NCBI RefSeq assembly: GCF_018408705.1
Contig: NZ_AP023420.1
Coordinates: forward strand, 2,294,001 to 2,358,000
Length of the DNA stretch: 64,000 nucleotides
Direction: 5' to 3'
Origin: Pusillibacter faecalis
GTDB taxonomy: Bacteria > Bacillota > Clostridia > Oscillospirales > Oscillospiraceae
A model generated the notes under the pieces. The model searched no databases and was not told the DNA's origin. It was given only the letters and a program-made list of their open reading frames with translations. The stretch's first letter is position 1; each line of letters opens with the position of its first letter. Positions 3,096 to 48,400 of the stretch are shown in pieces. The position numbers and the translations under genes were made by a program.

Positions 3096-3698
3096 ATGAT
3101 TCTCAGCCCCAAATGGCAACAGACCTATGAAGAAGCTCTGCAGGCCATGAAAGATACTACTTACTCCCAATATTCCCTTGCGGATGTATCTACTCACCAT
3201 CATACAGAGGAACTGTTAGAAGCCGCGCTCCGTAACAACCGGTGCAGTCTGCGCGATATTCCTGTGGAAAAACGCACACTGAGGCTTTGTCATGTTGCGC
3301 TTGAGTGTTGCCACTCGATAAATGTTCAGTATATTCCAAAGAAATATTTTGATTATAATTTTTCGTTAAAAGCGGCTAGTTACTGCCCCGCCACATTGAG
3401 TACGATTCTCTATTTCTTCCGCGATGGGCGGTGGAAGGAACCCTACACAGCAGAAGACATACGTATCATTGCAGAGGCAGCCTGTCCGGTTGGTCTTGGA
3501 CAAGTCCGTCTCAACCAATTCCGCAATAAAGAACAAGAGTTGAATGGGCGCACATTCGAACGATATTGCTCTGACGAATACGGATTTGTACATCGGGCTC
3601 ATTCACATATCATCCGGCAGGCTTTGGAACTTTACCTCCACGATGCTGAAAATAAAAAGCATTTGACAACGGAGGCCCCTCTTGCAATCGGTGGATAA
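3096..3698 (+). CDS. Hypothetical protein (200 aa)
   Basis: The start is chosen because AAAGGAGG lies about ten bases upstream. The protein is soluble, with histidine- and cysteine-containing segments (HHHTEE and HVALECCH) that do not match a motif I know. It is the last gene of the operon entering from the left. The -35 element of leader L1 lies inside its final codons, so the next transcription unit begins within this gene. Confidence 0.6.
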   Translation: MILSPKWQQTYEEALQAMKDTTYSQYSLADVSTHHHTEELLEAALRNNRCSLRDIPVEKRTLRLCHVALECCHSINVQYIPKKYFDYNFSLKAASYCPATLSTILYFFRDGRWKEPYTAEDIRIIAEAACPVGLGQVRLNQFRNKEQELNGRTFERYCSDEYGFVHRAHSHIIRQALELYLHDAENKKHLTTEAPLAIGG

Positions 3699-3895
3699 TC
3701 CGGCTATAATAAAATTATATAGTATCCGTTGTTTACCACAGGTGAACATAGTAGCCGTGTTTCAAAACTCCCAGGGATCATGTGATCTTTGGGAGTTTTT
3801 TGTTTTCGGCCATATATAGGCCGTCCATATGGATCAGGCCAATCAGGCACCAAGCGCATGGATCAAGAACAGATCCATGCGTTTGTTTTTATATA
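3682..3895 (+). promoter_or_regulatory. Leader module L1: promoter, boxed stem-loop, tandem terminators
   Basis: The promoter is TTGCAA (3682-3687), a 17 bp spacer and TATAAT (3705-3710). Box 1 AGTATCCG is at 3721-3728. A 7 bp stem-loop follows (3731-3737 with 3741-3747, loop ACA). Box 2 AGTAGCCG (3750-3757) runs into GTGTTTCA. Terminator 1 is the AACTCCCA/TGGGAGTT hairpin with a T run (about 3766-3801). Terminator 2 is CGCATGGATC/GATCCATGCG (3855-3881), followed by TTTGTTTTTAT. The first gene starts 44 bases later. This is one of seven related modules in the element. The elements are seen directly; their regulatory mechanism is inferred. Confidence 0.85.
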
Positions 3896-3938
3896 GTCCC
3901 AAGCAGAACACTGAAAAATTTATAGGAGATGTATTACA

Positions 3939-4400
3939 ATGTTGAAAATGCTGAATGCACACAACGCGATGCGAACTGTTCTTGAAAACCGTCGAATTAC
4001 GCTGGAGTTGGCGCTCCGGCAACTGGCGCAAACGGTGGGCGGCCAGGCTCCTGATCAAGAGGAAATTGCCGCATTCTTTCATGATTTCATGGATGGGTAC
4101 TGGGATGCCTTTGAAGAGGCGACTTCCCATGATTCCGATGATCTGAGAGAAATCGACAGACAGATCCTACAACTGCAGGAAGAAATCTCGCGGGCTTTGG
4201 GGCCGGAACATCAGGATGTGCTCAGCCAGTATGAATGCCTTGCAAACAGCCGTATGACCAAGGAGTTGGACCATGCTTTTTTAATTGGCTACCAGACCGC
4301 CATCAGGCTCCTTTTAATGGGTGTCCTGCCATTGCCGGCTCTTGTAGCCGATAATAGCACAGGCGAAGAAAACGGGAGGTGCAACGACAATAAAACCTGA
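3939..4400 (+). CDS. Hypothetical protein (153 aa), first gene after L1
   Basis: A mostly helical protein with an AGGAG ribosome-binding site ten bases before the ATG. There is a possible amphipathic coiled-coil stretch around residues 65-90. The family is not recognised. Its 3' end overlaps the start region of the next gene. Confidence 0.6.
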   Translation: MLKMLNAHNAMRTVLENRRITLELALRQLAQTVGGQAPDQEEIAAFFHDFMDGYWDAFEEATSHDSDDLREIDRQILQLQEEISRALGPEHQDVLSQYECLANSRMTKELDHAFLIGYQTAIRLLLMGVLPLPALVADNSTGEENGRCNDNKT

Positions 4401-4803
4401 TTGGATTATCCACTACATTCTCAGTGAGAGGCCGAGCAGCCATACGCATGGTCTCAACCGATACGGCAGTTTGGAACTGGAACTTAATTTGCCCGTAGTG
4501 CAGAAAAAAGCGGCCATGATACTCAATCTGGTGGGTATAGAGATTGCGGAAAAAGGAAAGCGATACCATTCTGGTGACCGGGAGGATGATGTGTTCACAC
4601 TTCCGTGCTATCTGTTCGAAACAAGTCCCGCAGTGCCGGATGCTTACTTTAAGCGTGTGCTGCGGGTTCTGATCTGCGATCCGGACGGGAAATATCCCTG
4701 GGAGGATGGGTGTGATCCCGGCTACGCCGCACAACTCAGCGGCGGCGAGAAACGGGAAATGGCGCGGATATACCAGCAACGGTATTGCCAGATACAGAAC
4801 TGA
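4390..4803 (+). CDS. Hypothetical protein with unclear, possibly non-canonical start
   Basis: Coding-like sequence runs from about 4390, with a conserved-looking segment HTHGLNRYGSLELELNLPV near the N terminus. No ATG, GTG or TTG occurs in this frame before the TTG at 4471, which would cut that segment off. An ATA at 4390 lies ten bases after a good GGGAGG. Either translation starts at this rare codon or the original start was lost. The HTHGL-fGxxEL-type segment recalls small immunity-like or DUF4262-like domains, but I would not assign it. Confidence 0.5.
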   Translation: MKPDWIIHYILSERPSSHTHGLNRYGSLELELNLPVVQKKAAMILNLVGIEIAEKGKRYHSGDREDDVFTLPCYLFETSPAVPDAYFKRVLRVLICDPDGKYPWEDGCDPGYAAQLSGGEKREMARIYQQRYCQIQN

Positions 4804-4900
4804 TAACGATGAGCAAACCGTATGTAATCCAACAAATATATTTGGGGCTGGGCGTGTGATAGTGCATCCCAGTCCCGAGCCTTTTATTAGGGAGGAGTCC

Positions 4901-5704
4901 ATGAATCATAACAAAGAATTTACCAGTCTACTCGCGCAGACTGCTGAAATCACCCGCGGCAGGATCCACAGGCGTGAGGTCTATCGGGATTTTATCGACT
5001 ACTGCGCATTAAACATTTCTGTTCAGACTGACCACGTACATCAGGAACGGAAGACATCCTTGGACAAACTGCTGAAGCGGTATAAGGAAGAAGAACGGAC
5101 CGCGTTTGCACACACATTTCGGGAACTCGCTCACACTGTTGTAAGGAATGTGGAAGGTGGCATCTATGAGGATCTGCTGGGCTCGACTTACTGTGAGTTC
5201 GGCGCAGACAATCGCGCACTAAAGCAGGATTTCACTCCGCAGGATGTGGCAAGGCTGCTGGCGAAAATCACAACCATCGGCAACCATTATGAACTGCCCT
5301 CTGAGGGGTTCTTTACACTAAATGACCCTAACAGCGGTAGTGGGATATTGTTGCTTGCAGCGGTGGAAGAAGCAATAAGAAATGGGCTCAATCCATCCGA
5401 GCAGCTTGTCATTCAGGCATCTGATTGTGACATTGCCTGTGCGCAAATGACCTACATCCACCTTTCGCTCTATGGGATTCCCGCTGTTGTTGTCCAAGGG
5501 GATTGCATCTCCATGAAAGAATATAGCCGCTGGTACACGCCAGTCTATCTCTGGAGAAAATGGGTATGGCGTGCTCCAATGTCCTTTGGCACCAGAAGGA
5601 ACCCAAGTGATGAACAACTCAAAATGTTGACGGAGCCGATGTATGCGCAATGCCGGAAACTGGATCAGTTTTTCAGGAAGGAGGTGAGCCAGCGTGGAGC
5701 ATGA
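4901..5704 (+). CDS. N6-adenine methylase-like protein lacking the catalytic NPPY motif
   Basis: Residues 109-113 (QDFTP) and the nucleotide-binding loop DPNSGSG at 142-148 match motifs X and I of type I (HsdM-like) DNA adenine methylases. A helix-acid segment follows at the place where the methionine moiety is bound. Motif IV (NPPY/DPPY), which does the methyl transfer, is absent: after the GDCISM segment the sequence goes straight to a short C-terminal tail. At 267 residues it is about half the size of HsdM. It may bind S-adenosylmethionine or DNA without methylating. The chosen ATG has GGGAGGAG just upstream; a longer open frame exists upstream. Its stop overlaps the next gene. Confidence 0.65.
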   Translation: MNHNKEFTSLLAQTAEITRGRIHRREVYRDFIDYCALNISVQTDHVHQERKTSLDKLLKRYKEEERTAFAHTFRELAHTVVRNVEGGIYEDLLGSTYCEFGADNRALKQDFTPQDVARLLAKITTIGNHYELPSEGFFTLNDPNSGSGILLLAAVEEAIRNGLNPSEQLVIQASDCDIACAQMTYIHLSLYGIPAVVVQGDCISMKEYSRWYTPVYLWRKWVWRAPMSFGTRRNPSDEQLKMLTEPMYAQCRKLDQFFRKEVSQRGA

Positions 5705-6173: not shown

Positions 6174-6186
6174 GGGGGAATAGGAA

Positions 6187-6990: not shown

Positions 6991-7232
6991 AACAAATTGG
7001 GCGGTCCACCGAACATTCGGTGGGCCGCCTATCAGCGTACCGCAAAAGAGGTGTCCGTATAACTGAGAAGCACCGGAACATGGTTTGCGGTATTGTCGGT
7101 GACGGTTGGAAACCAACACCGGATAGTACGAAAGGGCGGTGCAGAGAACCGGTGAGCAAAGCTGCTTTAATACGAACCGCTGTCATGTTCGACGCAGAGG
7201 CATTTCTTTAGACTGAAAAAAGGAGAGATACT
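6991..7232 (+). other. Intergenic region with hairpins, no supported gene
   Basis: It begins with a GGCGGTCCACCG/CGGTGGGCCGCC inverted repeat (about 7000-7030) without a T run. There is a GTTGG/CCAAC stem-loop near 7105-7120. A short open frame here has no good ribosome-binding site and a composition unlike the neighbours. The segment may be an untranslated structured part of the L1 transcript. I see no leader module in it. Confidence 0.4.
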
Positions 7233-8636: not shown

Positions 8637-8641
8637 ATAGG

Positions 8642-13883: not shown

Positions 13884-14052
13884 AAAAAAGTGAGCAGGGA
13901 TAGGGATATCCCGCTCACTTTGTTGCCAGTGTTGGCAAAAAACAAAAATGCCATCGCCCCCAGGGTGATGGCATGGATGAAACACGGTGTACTTTGCCAT
14001 ATGGCACAGATACTGATATTTATAATATAACGCATTCAAGCACAAAAAGCAA
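13884..14052 (-). promoter_or_regulatory. Leader module L2 (minus strand)
   Basis: Read on the minus strand, TTGCTT (14052-14047), a 17 bp spacer and TATATT (14029-14024) form the promoter. Box 1 AGTATCTG is at 14014-14007. The stem-loop TGCC-ATAT-GGCA is at 14006-13995. Box 2 AGTACACCG (13993-13985) runs into GTGTTTCA. Terminator 1 is ATGCCATC/GATGGCAT with TTTTTGTTTTTT (13973-13938). Terminator 2 is AAGTGAGC/GCTCACTT with TTTTTTATAT (13920-13884). It has the shortest box spacing of the seven (13 bases rather than 19-21) and lies back to back with L3. Confidence 0.8.
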
Positions 14053-14087: not shown

Positions 14088-14264
14088 TTGCATTTCATCT
14101 TGTGGTCAGGTATAATAATGCCATAAAGTATCCGTTGACTGTATCTACAGTCATCAGTAGTCGTGTTTCAAAGCGCCTAAAGGCAGACTTGCCTTTGGGC
14201 GCTTTTTTATATATATGGGCCTTCGGGCCACAAGGAGGGGCGCCGAGGTGCGTCCCTCTTTTCA
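14088..14264 (+). promoter_or_regulatory. Leader module L3
   Basis: TTGCAT (14088-14093), a 17 bp spacer and TATAAT (14111-14116) form the promoter. Box 1 AGTATCCG is at 14127-14134. The stem-loop is TGACTGT/ACAGTCA (14136-14153). Box 2 AGTAGTCG (14156-14163) runs into GTGTTTCA. Terminator 1 is GCGCC..AAGGC/GCCTT..GGCGC with six T (14173-14208). Terminator 2 is GAGGGGCGC/GCGTCCCTC followed by TTTTC (14235-14264). It is divergent from L2, with 35 bases between the two -35 elements. Confidence 0.85.
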
Positions 14265-15489: not shown

Positions 15490-16323
15490 ATGGAGAATGA
15501 CAGCAAAACCATGTCCGCAGATAATTGGGGTCAAATCATTCGAAAAGATGCAAGAGGTTGCTTTGTGGAGATCAAAAATGACTGTTTCCATCTGGAAAAA
15601 GTCCATCTGCAATTTGTATCCTATGATACGTCACTGCCGAAAGGTAGCCGATACACCAGTAATATCAATATCTACATTGATGTGCCAGAATTTCTCGCAT
15701 TGACTCAGGAGGCTGCCTCCGGCACCCTGCATATGCGGATGCAGCAATATAAGCAGGAAAAAAAGCAGGAGCCGCTATATGAACATCTGGGCGCCACCTC
15801 GGCAAAACAGCTGGCCAAGTACGGCAAATCTCGGTCAGACGGGAAGAGCCTGTCCCGGGTCGTAAAACTGACGATCTCAAGCAAGTCCGACTACTTTCTC
15901 ACTGCGGATAGCGGACCAGGGGAGGAGAACAAAACCGGACTGATTGTCCCCAAGTTTGGGGCAAACCCTGAACAGCATGTTTCTGTGATCCTCAGTTGGC
16001 GCCAGCTCAACGAACTACTGCTGACCACGGCGGAGCACTACCGCGCCTGGCTCTCTGCCAAATACACTGCGGAGTGGGGGGCAATCCATGGGCCACGGAT
16101 CAATGAGCGAGAGAAAAAGTCGTCTGGACGGTCAAAAGCACAGGCACCGCCGCAGCCAGCACAAGACTCTGCATCGAGGAAACCACCGGAGCAGCCGGTG
16201 CCGCCGGCACAGCCACCTCAGTCGGTACAGCCAGCACGGCAAGTAGGATTTGCGAGTGTATTTGGCAGTATTTATGGCAGTGGAACTGGCAAGTCTGGCG
16301 CGGGTGACAGGCGGATGTTTTGA
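15490..16323 (+). CDS. Hypothetical protein with proline-rich tail (277 aa)
   Basis: The first 190 residues look like a compact mixed domain: KVHLQFVSYD and NINIYIDVPEFL strands early, and GLIVPKFG plus a helical LSWRQLNELLLT segment later. A low-complexity Pro/Gln/Ala linker (about residues 210-255) ends in a Gly/Ser-rich tail. This globular-domain-plus-flexible-tail layout resembles DNA-binding proteins such as SSB, but there is no sequence motif to confirm it. Confidence 0.55.
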   Translation: MENDSKTMSADNWGQIIRKDARGCFVEIKNDCFHLEKVHLQFVSYDTSLPKGSRYTSNINIYIDVPEFLALTQEAASGTLHMRMQQYKQEKKQEPLYEHLGATSAKQLAKYGKSRSDGKSLSRVVKLTISSKSDYFLTADSGPGEENKTGLIVPKFGANPEQHVSVILSWRQLNELLLTTAEHYRAWLSAKYTAEWGAIHGPRINEREKKSSGRSKAQAPPQPAQDSASRKPPEQPVPPAQPPQSVQPARQVGFASVFGSIYGSGTGKSGAGDRRMF

Positions 16324-17401: not shown

Positions 17402-17854
17402 GTGAAACAGGATGCTTGTAATATCCCACTTGCACTTCAGCACCAGATGCTGATACAGGCGGCGCTTTCTGTGCTGACACTTGTGTTGGCTGCCCTGGCG
17501 ATGCTTTTCTTTTCCATAACAGTCTCCGTACCGTTCCTGTTGTGTGCGGTTTTACTGGCATTCAGTGCCTTCCGACTTTATAACATCGGGCGACGCGGGC
17601 AGTATCTTGTGCTCGAAGGCACGGTGTTGAAGTTAGAGCGTACGCCGTTGCGTCTGCGGCCTAAGGCGATGTTGATGGAAGTCGAGGGGAAAGCTCTGCT
17701 GGTCGTACTTCGCAACCGGCATATCTCAGTGCGAGAGGGAGATGCACTAACTCTTTATATTGCAGATACCGCGCCGCTTTATGAGTGGCGTGGTATCCAT
17801 CGGCTGCATTCCTATCTGGCCGTTGTGCCAGCGATACGGGGAAAGGTGACGTAA
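17402..17854 (+). CDS. Two-helix membrane protein (150 aa)
   Basis: The GTG start is placed eight bases after AGGAGG; an ATG six bases earlier is too close to the ribosome-binding site. Two adjacent hydrophobic helices (about residues 14-52) form a hairpin, followed by a soluble beta-rich domain with strands around LVLEGTVLKLER and ALLVVLRN. The layout recalls NfeD-like or membrane-anchored OB-fold proteins. Its role is unknown. Confidence 0.55.
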   Translation: MKQDACNIPLALQHQMLIQAALSVLTLVLAALAMLFFSITVSVPFLLCAVLLAFSAFRLYNIGRRGQYLVLEGTVLKLERTPLRLRPKAMLMEVEGKALLVVLRNRHISVREGDALTLYIADTAPLYEWRGIHRLHSYLAVVPAIRGKVT

Positions 17855-17859
17855 CAGGT

Positions 17860-18702
17860 ATGATCTATCATATCTTCAACTACCGCATCCAGGGGAAGTG
17901 GTACCGGGATAGCGCCACCTATTCAGAAGCACAGTTTGAGCGGATCATGGAGGCATTGGACTGGAAACTGCCGGTCCATATGCAGATATACCACTATGGG
18001 AGTCCTGACCGAAAATACTACGATCTGACGAATGCGATAGTAGTCAAGCGGCCGGTTCTTTCGCTTGATCCAATGGCTTTAGCGGTTTCTCCACAGGAAA
18101 AACGTACTTCTGTATATGATAAGCAGCGGGAAATCAGTTGGCCGGTGGTTCACAGGCTGGGGCGTTTTCTGATTTGCCAGCCTGACGATGATTGGCCAAG
18201 GTTTTGCTATGCCGATGGAGATCGGTTCAGTCTGATTACCCCGATGGATATTACTCCGGTGTCTATCAAGGAAGCGATGGAATTTGTTCGCCAGAACCAT
18301 CGCCACTGTTCCGCCCCGCAAGGGCATAAATTCTCCATCGGCCTAGTTGCCGGCGACGGAGCGAGAATTGGCGTTGCCATTGCCAGTATTCCAAAGGCAA
18401 GAGCGCTAAACGATGGACGTACATTAGAGTTGAATCGAATATGTTGTGACCCTGTGTACCGCCACGCCGCCAGCAAACTCTGCGCAGCTACCATTCGTGT
18501 AGGGAAGGAGATGGGATACCATCGGTTTGTGACCTATACGCTGCCGCAGGAATCAGGAAGCAGTTTGCGGGCAGTCGGGTTTCTGCGGGATGGGCTCACA
18601 TCGGCCCGGCCATTGGGGTGGAATTGCCGTAACCGCCCGCGGCGAACTCCTGAAAAGTATCCCACAGGCGTGAAGATTCGATGGATTCTGGAAACAGGAT
18701 AG
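17860..18702 (+). CDS. XF1762/Mom-like GNAT-fold protein (281 aa)
   Basis: The N-terminal 130 residues are unrecognised. The C-terminal half follows the phage XF1762 family, which has a GNAT-like fold: a helix with RQNHRHCSAPQGHKFSIG, then GVAIASIPKARAL, GRTLELNRICCD and a helix. It ends with RFVTYTLPQESGSSLRAVGF. Related Mom-type proteins add an acyl group to adenine in phage DNA. Whether this copy modifies DNA, nucleotides or protein cannot be told. It closes the L3 operon. Confidence 0.65.
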   Translation: MIYHIFNYRIQGKWYRDSATYSEAQFERIMEALDWKLPVHMQIYHYGSPDRKYYDLTNAIVVKRPVLSLDPMALAVSPQEKRTSVYDKQREISWPVVHRLGRFLICQPDDDWPRFCYADGDRFSLITPMDITPVSIKEAMEFVRQNHRHCSAPQGHKFSIGLVAGDGARIGVAIASIPKARALNDGRTLELNRICCDPVYRHAASKLCAATIRVGKEMGYHRFVTYTLPQESGSSLRAVGFLRDGLTSARPLGWNCRNRPRRTPEKYPTGVKIRWILETG

Positions 18703-18723: not shown

Positions 18724-18875
18724 TTGACCTTTACTATTTGCCGTGATATAATCAAGTCAATAGTAACCGTGTTTTCGTTGAGAAATCAAAGTTCCCGTGT
18801 TGCACAGTGCCAGATAGCGCGATTGCGCTGTTTGGCACTTTTTTGTTTTCTACCCGTAAAACACGGGTTTGAAAT
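18724..18875 (+). promoter_or_regulatory. Leader module L4
   Basis: TTGACC (18724-18729), a 17 bp spacer and TATAAT (18747-18752) form the promoter. Box 1 AGTAACCG is at 18762-18769. A TTTTC-GTT-GAGAA stem-loop follows, then box 2 AGTTCCCG (18790-18797), running into GTGTTGCA. Terminator 1 is AGTGCCA/TGGCACT enclosing AGCGC/GCGCT, followed by six T (18806-18845). The second hairpin ACCCGT/ACGGGT (18852-18868) is followed by the weak run TTGAAATAAAA, so it is the least convincing second terminator. It controls the longest operon, about 15 kb. Confidence 0.8.
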
Positions 18876-19485: not shown

Positions 19486-19530
19486 GTATGCAACTGGCAG
19501 AGCCAATAAAATATAACTATAAGCGTCAAA

Positions 19531-19577
19531 GAGCGCACATGAAGTCGGAACCATCCACTCCATGTGCGCTCTTTTTT
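19531..19577 (+). terminator. Strong terminator inside the L4 operon
   Basis: An 11 bp perfect stem, GAGCGCACATG (19531-19541) with CATGTGCGCTC (19561-19571), is followed by six T. It lies between ssb and the rest of the operon, and no promoter is obvious between it and the next gene 15 bases later. It should cut off most transcription unless RNA polymerase is made terminator-resistant. Confidence 0.85.
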
Positions 19578-20696: not shown

Positions 20697-20710
20697 GGAG
20701 CGTGATCTCA

Positions 20711-22573
20711 ATGAGTTCAAAACTGTTTTCCTTTTCCAGACCCTTACCCGAGCCTTTTGATAAGGTCAAGCGGAAGGTCAAGGTATCCTCCAAGTATGGA
20801 GATGGGACGGAGTCCACGCTCTGCTGCACTGTGGCTAAGGCGGTCTTGGCCTATTTCAAGTGTAAGTATGGCGTAGAACCCGGCGCCGTTGGGCTCTGCG
20901 GTTCCAAAGGCGTGGCGGAATATAAGTCTGATTCCGGCCCTGATGACTACCATTTGGCCGTCTACGAGCCTGCTTCTGGCTCCGTCCTTGCCAGTCTCTA
21001 TAACAAGGATACGGAGATGATCGAAACCTACGCTATTCGGAATAATGGTCGGGATGGCGCGGCGGTTCTCATGGCGATGCTCCCGGCCCTGATGGTGGAT
21101 GACGAGTTCAAAGAGCACCTGATGGAACTCGAAAAACAATATCAACTGGGATTCCCTGATATCAATCAGTCGACGAATGATCTGGCCATTCTCTGTGATA
21201 ACGCCTACCGGCGGGTCAGCGATAGCAGTTGCGGTGCGCATCTGCCGGTCAATATCGACGGGTCGGGGAACCTGATGCGGGTTTCCACTACTCATATTGA
21301 TGCGGGGAACTTCCGGCCGGACAGCGTGCTGGCTGGTATGTTCACAATTCTGGCCACTTCCAGCGCTCCCGTAAAATTGGAGATTAAGGAGGCCACGCCG
21401 CACAGCGATTTCATTGGCAAATATGTCTTGAATCCGGCACGCATTCTTACGCCTCATGAACAGGCGCTTGTACCTGTTTTGGAGCCTTGGTATGTGTTGC
21501 CGGAGGAGGTCATTACGATCTGTAAACACGCGAAAGCATCTACTGGGCGGTCGTTGCCCATGCGAAACTTCCTGCTGCGCGGCCCTGCTGGTACAGGAAA
21601 GACAGAGGGGGCCCGGGCAATTGCGGCCGGGCTGAACCTGCCGTATATGAAGTACACCTGCTCTGCCGGCACGGAGATATTTGACCTTGTCGGACAGGTG
21701 TTTCCTGACACAGATGGACCTTCTACTGGCGATGCTGACTTGGACCAACAGCGGGAACAGCTCAAAGAGATGGGCGGAATTACCTATGAGAATGTGAAAA
21801 AACTCATGGGGTTGCCCGATTTGGATGACATGGACTATGACCCCGCCGGCACATACCAGAAACTCTCCGGCATGGAAAAGCCCGATGCAACGTCACAGGA
21901 CTGTATGAGCCTTGTTATGGAGATGGTCACCAATAAACTGCAACAACTGTGCAAAGTGCAGCCGGAGTCATCCGACGGCAGGCAGACCTTTACCTACATC
22001 GAAACGGACTTCATCCGTGCGCTCAAGCATGGATATTTAGTAGAACTGCAGGAGCCCACCACGATTATTCAGCCTGGTGTGTTGGTTGGCCTCAACTCTC
22101 TTTTAGAGCAAAAAGGGTCCATTACCCTGCCAACCGGCGAGGTGATCCATCGTCATCCGGACGCAGTGGTTGTGGTGACTACCAATGTCAGTTACGAGGG
22201 CTGCCGCGGCGTAAACCAATCGGTTCTTGACCGCATGAATCTCACTCAGGATATCGAATTGCCGGAGCCGGAAATCATGGCGCAGCGCGCCATGAGCATT
22301 ACCGGCTGTGAAGATGATGTCCTGGTCGGACGCATGGTACAGGTGGTATGCGATATGGCCGACTATTGCCGGAAAAATGGGATCTCAGACGGCAATTGTG
22401 GTATGCGCAGTCTCATCGACTGGATCATGAGTACAGAGATTACAGGGGACCCCTATACCTCGGCGCGCTATACCATCGTGAGCAAGGCCACATCGGATGA
22501 AGAAGACCGGTCCGCACTGCTTACCACTGTGTTGGAGCCGATTTTCGCACCCAAACAAAAGAAGGCAGTTTGA
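20711..22573 (+). CDS. MoxR-like AAA+ ATPase (620 aa)
   Basis: A unique N-terminal domain of about 270 residues precedes the AAA+ core. Walker A is GPAGTGKT (291-298). A sensor-1-like strand VVVVTTN and an RMN arginine segment (SVLDRMNLTQDIELPEPE) follow near residues 490-520. MoxR-type ATPases work with VWA-domain partners to remodel or insert metal into protein complexes. The next gene encodes such a partner, which supports this. The ATG is chosen over a GTG nine bases earlier because it is ten bases from AAGGAG. Confidence 0.8.
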   Translation: MSSKLFSFSRPLPEPFDKVKRKVKVSSKYGDGTESTLCCTVAKAVLAYFKCKYGVEPGAVGLCGSKGVAEYKSDSGPDDYHLAVYEPASGSVLASLYNKDTEMIETYAIRNNGRDGAAVLMAMLPALMVDDEFKEHLMELEKQYQLGFPDINQSTNDLAILCDNAYRRVSDSSCGAHLPVNIDGSGNLMRVSTTHIDAGNFRPDSVLAGMFTILATSSAPVKLEIKEATPHSDFIGKYVLNPARILTPHEQALVPVLEPWYVLPEEVITICKHAKASTGRSLPMRNFLLRGPAGTGKTEGARAIAAGLNLPYMKYTCSAGTEIFDLVGQVFPDTDGPSTGDADLDQQREQLKEMGGITYENVKKLMGLPDLDDMDYDPAGTYQKLSGMEKPDATSQDCMSLVMEMVTNKLQQLCKVQPESSDGRQTFTYIETDFIRALKHGYLVELQEPTTIIQPGVLVGLNSLLEQKGSITLPTGEVIHRHPDAVVVVTTNVSYEGCRGVNQSVLDRMNLTQDIELPEPEIMAQRAMSITGCEDDVLVGRMVQVVCDMADYCRKNGISDGNCGMRSLIDWIMSTEITGDPYTSARYTIVSKATSDEEDRSALLTTVLEPIFAPKQKKAV

Positions 22574-22606
22574 TCGAAAGAAAAAAGGAAAGGAGGACCG
22601 CTACTC

Positions 22607-24919
22607 TTGGCAAGAGTGAGTCATAAGAAAATCAAGCAGTTGATTGCACAGAAGCAGTCGAAAATCACTGACCGCCAGTTTTTTACCTCGCGTATCCTGG
22701 CCAATCACTTCGCGGATATTGCCGCCGCACAGACACGGCGGTACGGCTATCGGCGCAGGGTAAAGTGCAGCATCATCTGGAAGCCCAAGAATCCGAGCCT
22801 GGCCTGTACGGATAATGCCCTGATCCAGATCAATGCCGGCAATCCTCAGGTGACACGGCAGAAGGGGCGGCAGGCGCGGTACGAACAAGTCTGCGGACTA
22901 TTCGCCCATGAACTTGGGCATGTACTCTATACGGACTTTCTTGCATCGCAGTCCTATCACAGTTTTCAAGAGATCGGCAGGTGGTTCCCGGAGAATCCGC
23001 CCCTGCGAAATGCTGCAGAGCGAGATGCGGAAGCGGATTTGTTAGCCTACCAGAAAGCAGATCCAAAGAATGTCGGCCTGTTGGGGAGAATATCCCATGA
23101 CATCCTGAACGTCCTGGAGGATGGCTATATCGAAAATCGGATGCTGATGGACTACCCCGGCATCTTGGGCAGCAGTCTGCGGGCGTGGCGCAAAAACAGA
23201 CTCGAAAATTTTCCTACCATTGAGGATATGATCGACCGCGAGGAGGATGGCGGGCATATCTGGATGACCATCCGAAACGCCATGTTATCCTATATGCTCT
23301 GGGGTGAACTCAAGTATGGTGGGACGCCACTTTCTGATGAGCGTATACAGGTGGTGTTCTCTCTTCTGAGCGAGTTGGATACGGCTTTGGCCAGCCGGGA
23401 CTACAAGGACAGATGCCGCACTGCCAATCTGATCCTGATCCGGTGCTGGTCCTATATCAAGGACTTCATGGAGTTCTGTAAGGACCAGGCAGAAGACACC
23501 GCGCCTGGCGGCAGTGGTTCCGGAGATTCTGATAACCTGCTGAGCAAACTCCTCTCTTCTCTCATGGGGGGCAGTGAGGAGGGATCCGGCGACACGGCCC
23601 CGGTGGATGCTGGCAGCACATCGTCCAGTCCTGGCGGAACAGCGACTGGTCAGCAGCGCGCTGCAACTGCAGCGTTAGCCGCCAGTTCCAACGACAGTGA
23701 GGAAAACGAAGGCGAGGATGCCCAAACTGGCTCTGGCGCTGGCGAAGAACCTGAGTCCGAGGAGGAAACAGAGACTTCGGCCGGCGGCGCAGCAGGGGAA
23801 ACAGACGACAGTGATCAGAGCGCGGGCGACGAGACGGCAGTACAGTTGGGCGGCGGTCCAACACCCTCACACCAGAAGGTATCAGACCAGGAAGGCGGTC
23901 GCATCCCTCTACAGGAAACCAGCGAGGTGTCCGCTCCAGAGGGCGGTACCTCAGAGCGGGATGACGACTATGAGGGTTCAGGCTATACGGGAGCAGCTGC
24001 TGATATTGAGAGGCTGCTCAACCGTATCGCCGAGGACAGCGTTACCACTGACTTAGAGCGCCAGCGTACTGAGGAACTGACGGAACTCGCTCAGAGCATC
24101 TCCTATGGGGATATCCACGATGGCGTCAATAAGACGGTACACCGCATTGCTTCTGTCAGCGATGACATGAAAGAGAAGTACCAGTCCATTGCCGGTGAAT
24201 TGCTGCACATTTCCAGGCAATTACAAAAGTCCGTCTTGCAGCAGATGCAGGACAGCCGGCGTGGGGGAAAACAGACAAGTTTGCTGATGGGACGGCGTTT
24301 GGACTCTCACGCACTGTTCCGGACAGATTCACGTGTGTTCTATAAAAATGCGCTCCCCAACGAAATGCCTGCGCTGTGCGTAGGACTGCTGTTGGACGAG
24401 TCTGGTAGCATGTCCTGGAATGATCGGGCCACCTATGCCAGATCAACAGCAATCATTCTGTACGATTTCTGTCAGGCACTGGGCATTCCCATCACCGTGT
24501 ATGGACATTCCACCTCCGACCGCGTTGATTTATACTCCTATGCGGAGTTTGAGGCCATTGATCGGGATGACCGGTACCGGATGATGGATATTTCGGCTCG
24601 GGGCAGCAACCGCGACGGAGCAGCGCTTCGCTATGTGGCGGAAAAACTAGTGCGTCGGCCAGAGGATATCAAGTTGCTGATGTTGGTGTCTGATGGACAA
24701 CCCGCAGATTATAATTACTATGGGACCGCAGCAGAGGAAGATCTGCGCGGGATCAAGCATGAGTACCAGCGCAAAGGGATTATCTTCGTTGCGGCGGCCA
24801 TTGGGGCAGACAAGGAGAACATCGAGCGCATCTACGGCGATGCTTATTTGGACATCACCGACCTCACAAAACTGCCGATCAAATTGGCCGGCATCATTAA
24901 GCAGTTTATCCGCTTTTAA
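22607..24919 (+). CDS. HELGH metalloprotein with C-terminal VWA domain (770 aa)
   Basis: The start is TTG with AGGAGG ten bases upstream. The N-terminal 300 residues contain FAHELGHVLYTDF (zinc-binding HELGH at 101-105) in a peptidase-like setting. Residues about 305-470 are a low-complexity Ser/Gly/Glu/Asp-rich linker. The C-terminal VWA domain has an intact metal-ion-dependent adhesion site DESGSMS (about 597-603) and a downstream GSNRDGAAL and SDGQPAD. It resembles CobT-type chelatase subunits and VWA partners of MoxR ATPases, with an added peptidase-like head. With the preceding ATPase it probably forms a remodelling machine whose target is unknown. Confidence 0.8.
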   Translation: MARVSHKKIKQLIAQKQSKITDRQFFTSRILANHFADIAAAQTRRYGYRRRVKCSIIWKPKNPSLACTDNALIQINAGNPQVTRQKGRQARYEQVCGLFAHELGHVLYTDFLASQSYHSFQEIGRWFPENPPLRNAAERDAEADLLAYQKADPKNVGLLGRISHDILNVLEDGYIENRMLMDYPGILGSSLRAWRKNRLENFPTIEDMIDREEDGGHIWMTIRNAMLSYMLWGELKYGGTPLSDERIQVVFSLLSELDTALASRDYKDRCRTANLILIRCWSYIKDFMEFCKDQAEDTAPGGSGSGDSDNLLSKLLSSLMGGSEEGSGDTAPVDAGSTSSSPGGTATGQQRAATAALAASSNDSEENEGEDAQTGSGAGEEPESEEETETSAGGAAGETDDSDQSAGDETAVQLGGGPTPSHQKVSDQEGGRIPLQETSEVSAPEGGTSERDDDYEGSGYTGAAADIERLLNRIAEDSVTTDLERQRTEELTELAQSISYGDIHDGVNKTVHRIASVSDDMKEKYQSIAGELLHISRQLQKSVLQQMQDSRRGGKQTSLLMGRRLDSHALFRTDSRVFYKNALPNEMPALCVGLLLDESGSMSWNDRATYARSTAIILYDFCQALGIPITVYGHSTSDRVDLYSYAEFEAIDRDDRYRMMDISARGSNRDGAALRYVAEKLVRRPEDIKLLMLVSDGQPADYNYYGTAAEEDLRGIKHEYQRKGIIFVAAAIGADKENIERIYGDAYLDITDLTKLPIKLAGIIKQFIRF

Positions 24920-34426: not shown

Positions 34427-34606
34427 TTGACGAAAAGGTCTGAGAATGATATAATTCAACTATACAGTATCAGAGCCATGCCGAAGGCGTGCATAGTTTA
34501 CAGTGTTCCAAAGTGCCATTTGCAGAAATGCAGATGGCACTTTTTTTGTTTTTTGGCCATTTCATTATCGGCATAGACAGCGTTCCCAAAAGGGAACGCT
34601 GTTTTT
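34427..34606 (+). promoter_or_regulatory. Leader module L5
   Basis: TTGACG (34427-34432), a 17 bp spacer and TATAAT (34450-34455) form the promoter. Box 1 AGTATCAG is at 34466-34473. The stem-loop is CATGCC-GAA-GGCGTG. Box 2 AGTTTACAG (34495-34503) runs into GTGTTCCA. Terminator 1 is AGTGCCAT/ATGGCACT with TTTTTTT (34512-34547). Terminator 2 is ACAGCGTTCCC/GGGAACGCTGT with TTTTT (34577-34606), an 11 bp stem with a four-base loop. The recombination and partition operon follows 46 bases later. Confidence 0.85.
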
Positions 34607-34651: not shown

Positions 34652-35794
34652 ATGGTGAAATCTTGTTGTGACAGCTATCACACCCAGTTCAGCGCATTCC
34701 CGGACATGCTCAGTTACCACGAGAAGATCCGAACTGACAGCCGCTGGGAGCGCACCGAGGTCAAAAATCTGGAGGTGGCGGCGCTGGATAAGGCATCGCC
34801 CCTGTTCAACGACACGACCAGTTTCGATTCCTCTGTCTCCCGTGATGCAATCGAGGACACGGCAGAGAATCTGAAATTGGCCATCAAAGTCAAGGACAAA
34901 TTCTTCCCGCTGCGCGATACCGCTTATAAGAGCCTGCTGGACCGGGCGAAAGTCGGCGGTTCTGCACTACCCAAACTCCCGCGTGAAAAACTTGCGGAGT
35001 TGATCAATTCCTGCCTGGCGCTCCATAAGGACAGCGCCCTGTTGCTCGTCCGCGATGAGAAGGTCTCGGCCGCTCATTCCGGAGATACCCGTGACTACTC
35101 CGTGTTGGAGATCGATCAGTTACTGGACGGCTTACAGAGCAAGATGGACGAGCGGTTCCCGGGCAACCAGTTTTCCGGCGGTTATGTAGATCATTCCATT
35201 ACAAGCGCCTCATGGACACTGCCTGACCAAAAGACAGAGTTGCTGGATACCTACACAAAATTGTTGGCGGCAGAGGGGAAGACCGCTATGGCCGCCAAGT
35301 TGATGCCTGGTATCCGCTTTTCTACATCGGACACCGGGGTGGCCTCGGCAAAGGTTTCGGCGTTGCTGGTGGGGTTACAGTACCCCATCCATATTGGCGG
35401 TATGATTTCCGTGGAACACCGCCGGCAGTCCAAGGTCCCTGACTTCGTGGAGAGCCTTGATATGCTGTTCGCTCAGTTTGGGGACTCGGTTGCCAGATTG
35501 AGCGGCCTGCTGTCTATCCACCTAGATCACCCGGTCAATGCCATGACGGCCATCTGCAAACGCCTAGCGCTGCCGAAAAAGGCGGCGATGGAGGCCATCG
35601 ACATGTTCGAGATGGCGATTGGGGAAGACAGCGCCACTGCCCATGATGTGTTTGTAGCCATGCAGGAAATCCCCTTTATCCTCAAGACCCAGGGGACGCC
35701 GGAGAGCAAACTGTTGGCCCTGCAGGAAAATATGGCCCGGGCACTCACGCTCAAATGGCGTGACTATGACTATGCCCGGGAGGTGAAGTGGTAA
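34652..35794 (+). CDS. Hypothetical protein (380 aa), first gene after L5
   Basis: AAAGGAG lies upstream of the ATG. The protein is soluble and high in Ala, Leu, Lys and Asp, with the segment KVKDKFFPLRDTAYKSLLDRAKVGG and later LLVGLQYPIHIGGMISVEHR. Its layout loosely resembles phage and plasmid DUF932-type proteins, but the match is not convincing. It sits directly before an exonuclease gene (TAATG overlap), suggesting a role in DNA recombination or replication. Confidence 0.55.
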   Translation: MVKSCCDSYHTQFSAFPDMLSYHEKIRTDSRWERTEVKNLEVAALDKASPLFNDTTSFDSSVSRDAIEDTAENLKLAIKVKDKFFPLRDTAYKSLLDRAKVGGSALPKLPREKLAELINSCLALHKDSALLLVRDEKVSAAHSGDTRDYSVLEIDQLLDGLQSKMDERFPGNQFSGGYVDHSITSASWTLPDQKTELLDTYTKLLAAEGKTAMAAKLMPGIRFSTSDTGVASAKVSALLVGLQYPIHIGGMISVEHRRQSKVPDFVESLDMLFAQFGDSVARLSGLLSIHLDHPVNAMTAICKRLALPKKAAMEAIDMFEMAIGEDSATAHDVFVAMQEIPFILKTQGTPESKLLALQENMARALTLKWRDYDYAREVKW

Positions 35795-41537: not shown

Positions 41538-41546
41538 CAGAAGTGG

Positions 41547-41581
41547 ACAGCGGGACATGCGCAGCATGTCCCGCTGTTTTT
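41547..41581 (+). terminator. Canonical terminator inside the L5 operon
   Basis: A 14 bp perfect stem, ACAGCGGGACATGC (41547-41560) with GCATGTCCCGCTGT (41564-41577), with a GCA loop and TTTTT. It separates the primase from the partition genes. Confidence 0.9.
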
Positions 41582-42955: not shown

Positions 42956-42957
42956 GA

Positions 42958-43051: not shown

Positions 43052-43104
43052 AAAAAGACACGCCCCCTCAGGAATGCACCGTTCCTGAGGGGGCGTGTCT
43101 TTTT
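43052..43104. terminator. Bidirectional terminator, 23 bp perfect inverted repeat
   Basis: The arms at 43052-43074 and 43082-43104 pair perfectly around a seven-base loop, with A5 at one end and T5 at the other. It works as a terminator on both strands: a backup for the L5 operon and the end of the minus-strand L6 operon. Confidence 0.95.
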
Positions 43105-44044: not shown

Positions 44045-44071
44045 ACGGAATACCTCCTTCTAAAAGGAAAT

Positions 44072-44103: not shown

Positions 44104-44172
44104 TGAGTGTTATTGGAGCAGAAGCCTATTGATTTGGGTCAGGCGCACCACATCAAAATTGATCATGACGCC

Positions 44173-44676: not shown

Positions 44677-44721
44677 TATTTAGACCTCGCTCTTGCTAAT
44701 TTTATTGTTGCCTCTTTAGGG

Positions 44722-45801
44722 TCAACGGGTACTGCTGCCAGTGGCGTGAATGGCCGGAATATCCGCGGTATCTCCAACATGCGGCGGCTTGCTCTGGATT
44801 GCAGCCAGCAACTTGGAAAGTAGTTCGGGCAGTTTCATACTGTTGCGGCTGCCTTTATGGTAGCGGTAACTCCATTGACCACTCTGTGGGGAATATCGAA
44901 TACTGTGTAGCGTATTGATAATCCAGCCCTGTGTTTTTAGAGGAACTGAAATCCCATGCTCCCGAAAAAGCTGCATGATCAGAGACTTGCCGTTGATATC
45001 TTGATTTACAACTTCTTTTCCGGCTAAAATGTTTTGCTCCGCCTCTCGGATGGCGGAGGTATAGCGGTCTTGTAACTCTTGTTCACGCTGACGCGCCTGG
45101 GCTTCCAGTTCTGCCTCTCGCAGTTTGGCTTGCCGTTGGCGCTCTGCCCAAATGGGAGCGTTGTGTGCCTCAGCCTCTTCGCGCCGCCCCAAGAGGTTGG
45201 CAAAGCCAAGATCGGCCCAGCGATCTGGAGCCGCCATACTCTGGTTGAAGACCCGTTCAATCTCAGCCCGGATACCGTGTTCCAGCGTGGACAGCCACTT
45301 CAGGACTTCCGCCAGCCGGCTCCGCTGGTCGATGCCCACCATAAAGCCGTCGCAGGGGATAAAGATCGTCGGCCATGAATCACGCTTATTTTCCAAGGTG
45401 TAAAGCTCGATGCCGTTTTCATTGTAAAAACGGTAGTAGTAGTGCCTTTTACCCATCAAGTCCTTGGAAAAAACACGGTTTTCATCCCTCTCCTTTGGCG
45501 GGAATATATCCTTTTTCTTCTCGTTCGGGCGGGTGTAGCGGGGAGAGAGGCCGGTACGGCCCAAACTGTTTGTAATCTGTTTTTCGATTGATTCCAGACC
45601 GCCGTGCCGTTCCATAAAGCCTGATAGGTCCTGTGACTGCTGCAAATTACAAAGGCACAAACCTGTCCTGCCTTCATAGATAGCTCCCTTATATTGGAAC
45701 AGATCCAAGCCAAACTCGTTTTGAAACGACTTGGCTTCCTGTATCGGGGAAAAGGCACCATCCCGGAAGATGTAACAGACGGCAGAGTGTTTTTCATTCA
45801 T
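44722..45801 (-). CDS. Hypothetical protein with coiled coil (359 aa)
   Basis: The N-terminal 190 residues include repeated aromatic segments (YYYRFYNENGIELYTLENK and FIPCDGFMVGID). A long charged coiled coil runs at about residues 218-262 (AERQRQAKLREAELEAQARQ). A compact C-terminal domain carries the segment SIRYSPQSGQWSYRYHKGSRNS. The family is not recognised. It may be a structural or scaffold protein. Confidence 0.5.
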   Translation of the reverse strand: MNEKHSAVCYIFRDGAFSPIQEAKSFQNEFGLDLFQYKGAIYEGRTGLCLCNLQQSQDLSGFMERHGGLESIEKQITNSLGRTGLSPRYTRPNEKKKDIFPPKERDENRVFSKDLMGKRHYYYRFYNENGIELYTLENKRDSWPTIFIPCDGFMVGIDQRSRLAEVLKWLSTLEHGIRAEIERVFNQSMAAPDRWADLGFANLLGRREEAEAHNAPIWAERQRQAKLREAELEAQARQREQELQDRYTSAIREAEQNILAGKEVVNQDINGKSLIMQLFREHGISVPLKTQGWIINTLHSIRYSPQSGQWSYRYHKGSRNSMKLPELLSKLLAAIQSKPPHVGDTADIPAIHATGSSTR

Positions 45802-45862
45802 ATTTGAATCACCTTATCGTATGTCACTTTTACTGCAATCATATTTGTCATTTGTCGCTCCT

Positions 45863-46816
45863 TCAATTTTGATTTGTGTCTTTCACCATCATCTCGCGGG
45901 CTGCAATATAGCAGATGATGCTATAAATTTTTTTGGTAATGCTGTCCTCTGCCCTGCCTTTGACGAGCTGGGTGTCGATGAACATCGGAGAAATCGTACA
46001 CCGGGTCTCGATGAAGTATTTTTCGGAATTTTTCAGTGGGAACTTGCCTAGCCTCATGTAGACCTCTCCGCTTGTGTTCTGTCCATGTGGTGTGATATTG
46101 CTGTTTCTGAGGCAGCCTACATAGTGTTCCTGGCTGTACACACAGCCATATTCGTCCACGTCCGAAGCCTGATAGCCCCCCACCTCGCTCATCATATCTG
46201 CGGCCAGTTCCTCTGCAGACCGACTTGTGATAAAATACCGCTCCGGGAATGGGAGCGCCTGAATCCCCCAGAACTGATGGATGCTCCTGTTGAACATCCG
46301 CTCCAGTAAGGATTTCAGTTCGTCTTTCAGCGTATCATATGTAAGGTCCCAAAGTTGGATGGAAGACGGAACGCCAACTCCTTTTTCGAGGTAGTTCAAA
46401 TAGTGAACCGTTGACCGACTGGATGTTTCCTCCTCAGAGCCAGAGAAATCAGGGAATCCAGTCTTGCTCTCTATTAGCTGTACCTCCACGTCTGGGTAAG
46501 CGCCATTGGTGATAAAGAGCTGGAATGCTGGGCTTGTGCGGAAACCATCATGATTTCTCGGCCCCCTGCCAAGAGACTCTATCATCTCTTTTGGAAGGTC
46601 AATCCCATCGTAGGCATTCCGGGTCTTCTCAACCGCAGCTTCATCCTGTGGTGTGGTTTCCTCCTTGATGACTGCCTGAACTGCCTTGAACATCCGGTTT
46701 ATCTTGCAGTCCTTGCAGTCTTCCAGGAACGGCATAGCCCCTCTCATGCAAAAGGCACAGAAGGTTTGCTTAGCTTCGGCCATTTTCTCATAATAGGCGG
46801 TACTGATTGTCTTCAT
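45863..46816 (-). CDS. Hypothetical protein with N-terminal zinc cysteines (317 aa)
   Basis: The start is chosen because AAAAAAGGAG precedes that ATG. CAFC and CKDC (residues about 17-36) suggest zinc binding. The large remaining domain is mixed alpha/beta (WDLTYDTLKDELKSLLERM and ITSRSAEELAADMMSEVGGY). The family is not recognised. Confidence 0.5.
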   Translation of the reverse strand: MKTISTAYYEKMAEAKQTFCAFCMRGAMPFLEDCKDCKINRMFKAVQAVIKEETTPQDEAAVEKTRNAYDGIDLPKEMIESLGRGPRNHDGFRTSPAFQLFITNGAYPDVEVQLIESKTGFPDFSGSEEETSSRSTVHYLNYLEKGVGVPSSIQLWDLTYDTLKDELKSLLERMFNRSIHQFWGIQALPFPERYFITSRSAEELAADMMSEVGGYQASDVDEYGCVYSQEHYVGCLRNSNITPHGQNTSGEVYMRLGKFPLKNSEKYFIETRCTISPMFIDTQLVKGRAEDSITKKIYSIICYIAAREMMVKDTNQN

Positions 46817-46874
46817 ATACAATCTCCTTTTTTGAGCCGGAACTGGATGCTCCAATCCCGGCTTGTGTAGCGGA

Positions 46875-46982
46875 TTACCGGATGACCTCGTAGAGCATCA
46901 TGGTATCCAGATTGAACATGGACATGATCCGGGTGACTGTAGGCCTATGACAGCGGTCGCAAATCTGATTTTCAAACACCAT
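46875..46982 (-). CDS. 35-residue CxxC peptide gene
   Basis: The ATG overlaps the end of the upstream gene and has GGAGG eight bases ahead. The peptide begins MVFENQICDRCHRPT and has a SMFNLD segment. This looks like the first half of a small zinc-ribbon family (CDxCGxPT...SxFNTD...C..C) whose second CxxC is missing here. It may be a truncated copy. Confidence 0.5.
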   Translation of the reverse strand: MVFENQICDRCHRPTVTRIMSMFNLDTMMLYEVIR

Positions 46983-47526
46983 CCTTAGCCCCTCCCTCAC
47001 AGTCCAGAGTTCGCCCTGAGATGGCAGTCTCATCATGGCCGCCGTCGTACCGCTCCGGGGTGTTAATTTGCTCGGCGAAGGTGAAATACTTCTCCATCTG
47101 CCGGTCGAGCAGTCTGTCGATCTGTTGCCGGAATTCTGCGTTTACCTTCTTTTCTGCACTGAGGTAGTCGACGAACTCCTTGAATTCACCAAATGCCTCC
47201 AGATAGCCGGCAAGGAAAGCCGCATCTTGAGCCTGGGCCTGGATCCCTGCCTGGGAAGCGGCCCGCCGCAGGTCTGAGACTAGGGCAGCGGACTCTGGCC
47301 GGCGCTCCAGCGCCCCCCAAATCCGGTCAGAGTAGTCATGGCCCCTCCGGAATTGGGGCCTCATTCCACCAAACTGCAAAGCATAGATACTGGCGGCATA
47401 CAGATAGGCGTGTTCAGGATCTCGCCTATCATCGGTGTCGTAGACTTGAATGTTGAGCGGCTCCAAAAGGGTGGAGTAGACCTCGTTGACCAGTCCGCCA
47501 TCCATCTCGATAATTAAAGTAGCCAC
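46972..47526 (-). CDS. Hypothetical protein (184 aa)
   Basis: The start is GTG with GAGGAGG upstream. The protein is mostly helical, with a Gln/Ala-rich stretch (AGIQAQAQDAAF) and an acidic end. The family is not recognised. Its last codons contain the ribosome-binding site and start of the small CxxC peptide gene. Confidence 0.5.
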   Translation of the reverse strand: MATLIIEMDGGLVNEVYSTLLEPLNIQVYDTDDRRDPEHAYLYAASIYALQFGGMRPQFRRGHDYSDRIWGALERRPESAALVSDLRRAASQAGIQAQAQDAAFLAGYLEAFGEFKEFVDYLSAEKKVNAEFRQQIDRLLDRQMEKYFTFAEQINTPERYDGGHDETAISGRTLDCEGGAKDGV

Positions 47527-47547
47527 GTTTGTTCCTCCTCGATTGAC

Positions 47548-47736
47548 TTAAATAGTTTTTTTCAGGATGATAACCCCCATTACCTGTTCCAGGCCTTGTT
47601 CATTGAGCCAGGCATCCAGAGCAGTTTGGGCCTCTTGACGTAGAGCCTCTGTCCTCTCCGCAAGTTGATCCTCAACTTGTTCTCGGTTTGGAACCTCTTC
47701 GCTGACGAAAGCGACGCCAATCCAATTGGTATTCAT
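47548..47736 (-). CDS. Small helical protein (62 aa)
   Basis: One long charged helix (VEDQLAERTEALRQEAQTALDAWL) sits between two short strands. The ATG overlaps the stop of a 20-codon frame upstream (ATGA), which suggests translational coupling. The family is not recognised. Confidence 0.5.
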   Translation of the reverse strand: MNTNWIGVAFVSEEVPNREQVEDQLAERTEALRQEAQTALDAWLNEQGLEQVMGVIILKKTI

Positions 47737-47795
47737 TCCGGATCACCGTGTTTCGATGCTCTCTGCCGTGTCGGGATTCTTTCGAGTGATTGCAT
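47733..47795 (-). CDS. 20-residue leader peptide candidate downstream of L6
   Basis: A frame MQSLERIPTRQRASKHGDPE starts at an ATG ten bases after AAGGAG and ends in TGA overlapping the next gene's ATG. A second short frame (20 codons) starts even closer to the same ribosome-binding site. Either may be a leader peptide coupling translation to the downstream gene. Both are too short to judge from composition. Confidence 0.35.
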   Translation of the reverse strand: MQSLERIPTRQRASKHGDPE

Positions 47796-47850
47796 GACTT
47801 TTCATCTCCTTTTTGATTTTTGCGGTGTTCCGCTGCAGGGATATCTATAT

Positions 47851-48062
47851 AAAAAAACGTGTGGAACCCAGAATAGTCCACACGCTTTTGCCCAGGATGG
47901 GCGAGATCTGTTTAAGAGGGGCATTCGTTTGTCCAGAAAACAAAAAAGCGCCCAAAGGTCAGAAAGACCTCTGGACGCTATGCAACACGGAAACTAAGAC
48001 TGCCTTAGGCTGCCGCAGATACTATGTGAGCATATTATAGCGTTTCCTTTGAGAAAAAACAA
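47851..48062 (-). promoter_or_regulatory. Leader module L6 (minus strand)
   Basis: On the minus strand TTGTTT (48062-48057), a 17 bp spacer and TATAAT (48039-48034) form the promoter. Box 1 AGTATCTG is at 48023-48016. A 20-base interval with only a short GCC-TAA-GGC stem follows. Box 2 AGTTTCCG (47995-47988) runs into GTGTTGCA. Terminator 1 is GCGTCCAGAGGTC/GACCTTTGGGCGC with TTTTTT (47978-47942). Terminator 2 is CGTGTGG/CCACACG with TTTTTTTATAT (47884-47851). This copy has the weakest central stem. Confidence 0.8.
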
Positions 48063-48085
48063 GCATTAAAAATCACCACCCGCCG

Positions 48086-48208
48086 GTGGCAGCTGATGTT
48101 CTGAAACATATCGGGTTCACGATTCCCAAGCCGTGGAGCAGGAAGAAAGGCCATGTGGCATTTTACGTTGGTGACTCAGTTCGAAAATCCCTTGCAAACA
48201 ATCCGTAG
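48086..48208 (+). pseudogene. Short coding-like fragment between L6 and L7
   Basis: A 40-codon frame (VAADVLKHIGFTIPKPWSRKK and onward, ending SLANNP) has normal protein-like composition. It has no convincing ribosome-binding site, and its 3' end overlaps the -35 of L7. It may be the end of a gene whose beginning was replaced by the inverted L6 leader. I do not recognise the family. Confidence 0.3.
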
Positions 48209-48400
48209 GTGCGGTATAATACTGACATAAAGTATCCGAAATCGCCCTGGCGATTACAGTATTCTGTGTTTCAAAGCGTCTGAAGGCATGTTGCCTTTGG
48301 ACGCTTTTTACGTTTTGCCAAAAAAAGATATGTCTGCGCAGCCTAGTTACAGTACCAATGCGTGAAATTGCGTCTGAGGAACATCTTCAGGCGCTTTTTT
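48192..48400 (+). promoter_or_regulatory. Leader module L7
   Basis: TTGCAA (48192-48197), a 17 bp spacer and TATAAT (48215-48220) form the promoter. Box 1 AGTATCCG is at 48231-48238. The stem-loop is AATCGC-CCTG-GCGATT (48240-48255). Box 2 AGTATTCTG (48258-48266) runs into GTGTTTCA. Terminator 1 is GCGTC..AAGGCA/TGCCTT..GACGC with TTTTT (48276-48309). Terminator 2 is GCGTCTGA/TCAGGCGC with TTTTTT (48370-48400). The left arms of the two terminators both begin GCGTCTGA, so they could compete for pairing. Confidence 0.85.

Follow-up and report, generated by a model that had tools for sequence, protein, structure and literature searches.

To our knowledge, few systems are known to use RNA for processive antitermination. 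The N/nut system of phage lambda relies on a short RNA site that pairs a hairpin with a linear box and lies on several operons of the same element, and its boxB is recognised through the sequence of stem and loop. The put RNA of phage HK022 is about 70 nt long, comprises two stem-loops and occurs twice per phage (PMC9378689), and the conAn system of pLS20 combines the protein ConAn1 with the RNA conAn2 at the start of one conjugation operon of >30 kb (PMC8955417). In the RNA antitermination systems covered by the papers cited here, the signal is used once or twice per element. Here we describe a leader found in a 64,000-nt window of the Pusillibacter faecalis genome (contig NZ_AP023420.1, positions 2,294,001 to 2,358,000, forward strand; positions below are those of the window unless given in kb), which covers the right part of an integrated element whose right end is a Tn916-type tyrosine integrase (54169..55533, plus strand). 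Nearly all operons in a group of gut-bacterial elements to which this element belongs appear to begin with a member of one compact RNA family.

The leader consists of three AGUNNC-like boxes and one hairpin of 4-8 bp with free sequence, and is present in 12 copies in this genome. It resembles HK022 put as a nascent RNA near the transcript start with a stem, fixed unpaired bases and terminators behind, and in its expected effect on polymerase, but it lacks the two stem-loops in about 70 nt that mark a put RNA. Its combination of a short hairpin with a linear box, repeated across operons of the element, is shared with lambda nut; unlike boxB, it has fixed boxes flanking a stem and loop whose sequence varies freely. 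conAn shares the Gram-positive mobile element, an RNA part at the operon start and internal terminators (PMC8955417), but serves as one system per conjugation operon, whereas here the leader lies on nearly every operon. Tn916 canT also combines terminators and a probable cis-acting RNA with a Tn916-type integrase, but the fragment to which it was mapped is 452 bp long and is predicted to form several stem-loops (PMC11658703), compared with about 45 nt ahead of the first terminator here. LoaP leaders similarly have a hairpin followed by an intrinsic terminator (PMC12691694). LoaP is unlikely here, because the housekeeping NusG is the sole NusG found in the genome (a single PF02357 match at E<=0.001, in secE-nusG-rplK; assembly 97.65% complete), and the loops of 22 leaders are not of one UNCG type.

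The leader and its conserved RNA structure

The preliminary description of this window named seven leaders, and all seven are present at the positions and on the strands it gave. Leader 1 (3682..3895, plus; 81.7 bits with the covariance model R1, built from 19 leaders) has the promoter TTGCAA-17-TATAAT, box 1 at 3721, the hairpin, box 2 at 3750, box 3 at 3758, a first terminator (T1) at 3764-3799 and a second (T2) at 3849-3887. Leader 2 (13884..14052, minus) has box 1 at 14014, a short 4-bp hairpin, box 2 at 13993, T1 at 13974-13948 and a second hairpin recognised by eye; it is the weakest copy in the genome (26.9 bits; match 13944-14024 minus, E 0.05). Leader 3 (14088..14264, plus; box 1 14127, box 2 14156, T1 14170-14205, T2 14232-14261) is followed by leader 4 (18724..18875, plus; box 1 18762, box 2 18790, T1 18804-18841), which heads the operon of an SSB-like gene, ssb (PF00436; 18925..19485, plus). 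Leader 5 (34427..34606, plus; box 1 34466, box 2 34495, T1 34510-34543, second hairpin by eye) precedes a gene for a 380-aa protein (34652..35794, plus) that is kept with its leader in closer relatives, where an orthologous leader precedes the same gene. The last two are leader 6 (47851..48062, minus; box 1 48023, box 2 47995, T1 47981-47945, T2 47889-47853) and leader 7 (48192..48400, plus; box 1 48231, box 2 48258, T1 48273-48307, T2 48370-48394).

The recurrence of this module stands; a copy number of seven is too low. The strict pattern AGTANCNGN{10,28}AGTWN{2,5}GTGTTNCA matched nine times in the 3.4-Mb genome, seven of these being the leaders of the window, and zero times when read backwards as a control. 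R1 found 12 copies, 11 of them between 2272.5 and 2342.3 kb, in one element of about 70 kb that continues leftward past the window with more leaders there. The remaining copy, at 564.7 kb, is probably an element remnant, because relatives of the gene behind it, 28-31% identical, occur in five other stretches from the element group. By strand and order, all 54 window genes taken as real (the analyst's choice, integrase included) sit behind a same-strand leader with no opposing gene between, which supports the element-wide use proposed earlier.

Across 21 stretches comprising the element and its relatives, R1 gave 36 matches at E up to 1: 12 in the element's own genome, eight in Pseudoflavonifractor An184, four in Flintibacter muris, two in a contig from a viral collection, and three, two, two, one and one in five uncultured Oscillospiraceae contigs. 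A match at 14172-14205 minus (E 0.2) was rejected as a leader; it is the T1 hairpin read backwards. At E<=1e-4, under stricter filters that lose weak matches, R1 matched 9 of 400 genomes of the bacterial family, own genome included, and R2, built from 37 leaders, matched 7 of 384 genomes of the order, from four families; the own genome and G182 appear in both scans. One further match lies in an unverified, unannotated phage-collection record from human faeces (L116).

The promoters are, by sequence, near-consensus for sigma-A. In the window the TTG and the -10 are exactly 17 bp apart in all seven leaders, the -10 is TATAAT in six and TATATT in one, and box 1 follows at the claimed distance of 9 or 10 nt in each. 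When 54 leaders (45 non-redundant) were examined, with the -10 taken at whichever of four distances fitted best, the -35 had its T, T and G at a fixed distance from the -10 in 45, 44 and 44 of the 45, the extended -10 G was present in 40 of 45, and in all 54 the -10 matched at least five of six consensus positions, with box 1 beginning 8-10 nt past it. Transcription would thus start a few nucleotides before box 1, placing that box near +2 to +5 if the start lies 7 nt past the -10. No conserved operator was seen, as upstream and spacer columns outside the -35 hexamer and extended -10 carry <=0.52 bits (45 leaders).

Box 1 reads AGTnnC, in which none of the four named bases varies among the 37 aligned leaders, and its first description as AGTATCYG broadens to about AGTWTCNG across relatives. 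In box 2 the G is invariant (37/37), and A and T are each found in 36. The columns behind box 2 read (T/G/A)G-TT-N-CA, with G, T, T, C and A in 31, 33, 30, 33 and 33 of 37 leaders. This was taken as a third copy of the box because relatives read AGTTTC, AGTTAC or AGTGAC there, resembling box 1. The motif GTGTTTCA of the preliminary description joins the end of box 2 to this third box, of about WGUUNC. Boxes 1 and 2 lie 21 to 33 nt apart (27-29 in 42 of 56 leaders), and the stem and loop sequences between them are not conserved across relatives while the boxes are fixed.

The hairpin between the boxes folds in all 22 leaders first collected, and ranks in the best 5% of shuffles in 18. Among 57 distinct leaders, 56 could be placed, some of them faultily; 50 fold at <= -3 kcal/mol, and 43 of these are also in the best 5% of shuffles. 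The stem, 4-8 bp long, varies from copy to copy with compensating changes. Alignment A3, which MAFFT built independently of any structure, gives this stem (stem 1) a covariation score of 0.47, compared with 0.18 (sd 0.04) in shuffles, of which 0 of 500 reach 0.47; slid structures score 0.06-0.25. All six stem pairs have changed on both sides, and this covariation supports the RNA signal near the transcript 5' end that was proposed earlier. Model-fitted alignments, which are biased toward the structure, give 0.65 for the whole structure, compared with 0.23 when shuffled (0.61 and 0.22 in the wider set A6).

The covariance comparison with Rfam proposed in the preliminary description found no family that fits, and the leader recurs in other Oscillospiraceae elements. 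The window has no Rfam match at gathering score, 17 leader loci have none at E<=0.5, and the best match for one leader alone (E 0.12) is far below the gathering score. No earlier account of the leader was found in the literature searched; PMC8040213 reports 3161 candidate structured RNAs from human microbiomes in its supplements, and an anonymous earlier prediction is possible. On sequence evidence, we conclude that the leader is a real RNA family, undescribed within the literature and Rfam searched. Dozens of natural variants exist, in which compensating changes already point to the functional bases, and the leader is compact (about 45 nt, fixed boxes, free stem) and hence directly testable.

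Terminators and the proposed antitermination

T1 follows box 3 in the aligned copies and is the best conserved structure, with 98.7% of cells paired. That two terminators precede every first gene held in part: a second T-run hairpin is found by strict scan in four of seven leaders (3849, 14232, 48370, 47889) and by eye in two more (14052 minus, 34427), but the ssb leader at 18724 has none, and a strong terminator follows ssb instead. Second leader terminators often have ATATA or ATATAGA behind their T-run (window 3887 and 47853; L010 16681; L056 14224). In 19 leaders, forbidding the 3' arm of T1 costs 15.5-24.5 kcal/mol and frees no shared alternative antiterminator partner, which argues that the leader is not a refolding switch. 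ANTAR and LicT/RAT systems also place a protein-bound leader RNA ahead of a terminator (PMC3369936); they work through a competing antiterminator stem, and at this penalty none is feasible in the 19 leaders. With neither a conserved place for a repressor or activator nor a cheap alternative fold, regulation is likely to act at the terminators rather than at the promoters.

The terminator after ssb, T3 (19528..19577, plus; predicted at -29.1 kcal/mol, z -7.9), lies inside the leader 4 operon and was missed by the strict scan because its stem is interrupted. A strong hairpin with 6-7 T follows ssb in 10 of 10 elements where ssb could be followed (own, An184, Flintibacter, L040, L042, G216, G583, L036, G481 and G035). 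Its T-run begins 58-86 nt past the ssb stop codon, the next start codon lies 20-32 nt further on in the 9 of 10 elements where it was found, and no sigma-70-like match occurs in the rest of the 170-nt stretch. Since T3 precedes them, the genes for a MoxR-type AAA ATPase and a VWA protein (20702..24919, plus) and further genes would depend on read-through, unless there is an unseen promoter. Among the sequence evidence, T3, whose strength as a terminator is predicted, best supports antitermination that reaches past the leader. A terminator-like hairpin also lies inside the leader 5 operon, between primase-like and ParM-like genes (41543..41581, plus); at five such junctions, the hairpin before the T-run is <= -21 kcal/mol in the own element, An184 and G689 and -17.5 kcal/mol in the viral contig, with none in Flintibacter. 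That operon ends at a 24-pair bidirectional terminator (43052..43104).

From these sequence features, we give about even chances to the leader being a put/nut-like antitermination signal on nascent RNA, used throughout the element to make polymerase resistant to terminators. Transcription would start a few nucleotides before box 1 from a near-consensus extended -10 sigma-A promoter, and the free-sequence hairpin, supported by covariation, lies between fixed AGUNNC-like boxes. Recognition of these boxes, three in all, would take place on the nascent RNA, and their reader would most likely be an RNA-binding factor encoded by the element, which would join polymerase during elongation. The loaded polymerase could then pass T1, T2 and T3, while unloaded polymerase, including that reading through from upstream, would stop; the operons would presumably be nearly silent without antitermination, and presence or absence of the factor would switch them together. 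If confirmed, this would give the Firmicutes an equivalent of lambda N/nut or HK022 put, help to predict co-switched operons in uncharacterised elements, and offer a compact read-through device.

Candidate factor and alternative explanations

The named candidate for the antitermination factor is a 277-aa protein (15490..16323, plus) with a predicted whirly/PUR-like single-stranded nucleic-acid-binding fold, the predicted structure agreeing with this fold overall. It was found in five of nine leader-bearing genomes of the bacterial family, in 4 of 370 genomes when the family was scanned (each of the four has leaders) and in 13 of 25 records searched, which are not all independent (G405/G294 and G406/G216 share identical coordinates and are presumably the same genomes). 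It was found in none of four relatives that share the replication genes but show no leader. None of the papers listed in a literature search concerned a bacterial whirly antitermination system. A full model of a new processive antitermination system, in which this protein binds the three single-stranded AGUNNC boxes that a hairpin displays near the start of each nascent transcript, rides polymerase through the leader terminators and T3, and acts as master switch for about ten operons, is, taken as a whole, improbable.

Several observations weigh against antitermination by such a factor. The whirly-fold protein was not found in the leader-bearing G307, G182, G327, G358, G584, G404 and G403 or in the viral fragment G400, some of which are incomplete; leaders persist in genomes with one or two copies and no visible factor; and the acidic, aromatic C-terminal end of the protein would also suit a replication protein. 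G385 carries 48-67% identical pieces of the 380-aa gene without a leader match. Strong terminators outside leaders are few (T3 and three of the 14 listed in the window) and call for little long-range processivity, and T3 could merely set the ratio of ssb to moxR. As for the hairpin, just 69.9% of stem 1 cells pair on A3, 33 of 500 shuffles match the count of six pairs changed on both sides, and sliding the structure by -1 to -3 leaves a score of 0.22-0.25; in the widest set (A6) 58% of stem cells pair, and the register shifts by one base between leaders.

The failure to find a universal protein partner and the occurrence of the leader in four families would suit a purely RNA-based processive mechanism, in which polymerase is bound directly by the leader RNA, in the manner of HK022 put, which acts through the beta' zinc-binding domain, and the terminators insulate against transcription begun at other promoters. 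The leader lies near the 5' end and combines a hairpin with fixed unpaired bases, and putL likewise lies just downstream of its promoter and acts without protein (PMC9378689). Near-consensus promoters without operators would, however, leave the operons permanently on, and one short hairpin of variable sequence compares poorly with the two long stem-loops of putRNA; we consider this explanation rather unlikely.

Less probable still is local, non-processive attenuation, where a protein or ligand on the boxes alters T1 (and T2) of each leader alone. Boxes 2 and 3 abut T1, and leaders account for 11 of the 14 strong terminators listed in the window. The T1 stems vary while the boxes are fixed, the leaders have no competing fold in common, and T3 within the operon would still block transcription, all of which count against it.

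It is very unlikely that box 1 acts as a -10-like element for a sigma-dependent promoter-proximal pause at which a Q- or AlpA-type factor loads. Its NAGTAT fits NANNAT, the -10-like form carried by putL (PMC9378689), and stands 8-10 nt past the -10, but no conserved spacer or upstream DNA element is available for a DNA-binding loader, and such a pause would leave boxes 2 and 3 and the covarying hairpin unexplained. That the two to three direct repeats, of which box 1 overlaps the start region, form a DNA operator for a repressor is highly improbable, since the distance of 21 to 33 nt between boxes 1 and 2 gives no constant helical phase and the intervening sequence covaries as an RNA stem.

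Other features of the element and its relatives

Genes of the window recognised by Pfam encode SSB, the MoxR-type ATPase, a CobT-like VWA protein, PcfJ, a YqaJ nuclease, a RecD2-like helicase, DUF3854 and a ParM-like actin; no phage structural or conjugation genes were seen among the window proteins scanned, a subset of the open reading frames. One element protein matches a record from Clostridiales bacterium CCNA10 at 100% identity, and a second matches one from Dysosmobacter welbionis at 99%. An XF1762-family protein weakly similar to the Mom family is encoded at positions 17785-18702, upstream of the ssb leader.

Other leader-like sequences occur as well. At 33-35% identical homologs of the 380-aa gene (L103/L121:9890, L104/L124:8434 and L102/L125:14727 minus), a different single leader is found, consisting of TGTAYTTATTAGA, a CTCC..GGAG-type hairpin, TAAG.. 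and then a terminator; the TGTAYTTATTAGA-type leader possibly represents a second specificity class. Two phage-collection records from human faeces (from L117:2831 and from L115:4) have leaders in which AGTTT-type repeats surround hairpins, together with terminators and a sigma-A-like promoter; neither R1 nor R2 matches these leaders. G307 is a partial relative (L107:12887 to L108:8517) with two leaders, an IMS-type DNA polymerase, a Fic-family homolog and a Tn916-type integrase, and the ssb-moxR-vwa core is absent from the stretch available. The left part of the P. faecalis element contains an ABC transporter and a regulator as cargo (L010:4408-12411), and similar genes adjoin Tn916-type regulatory genes in G307, G182 and An184. 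In relatives without the leader, operator-like arrays of GAAGTT repeats stand beside a promoter-like site (L124:6691 minus and L125:16939).

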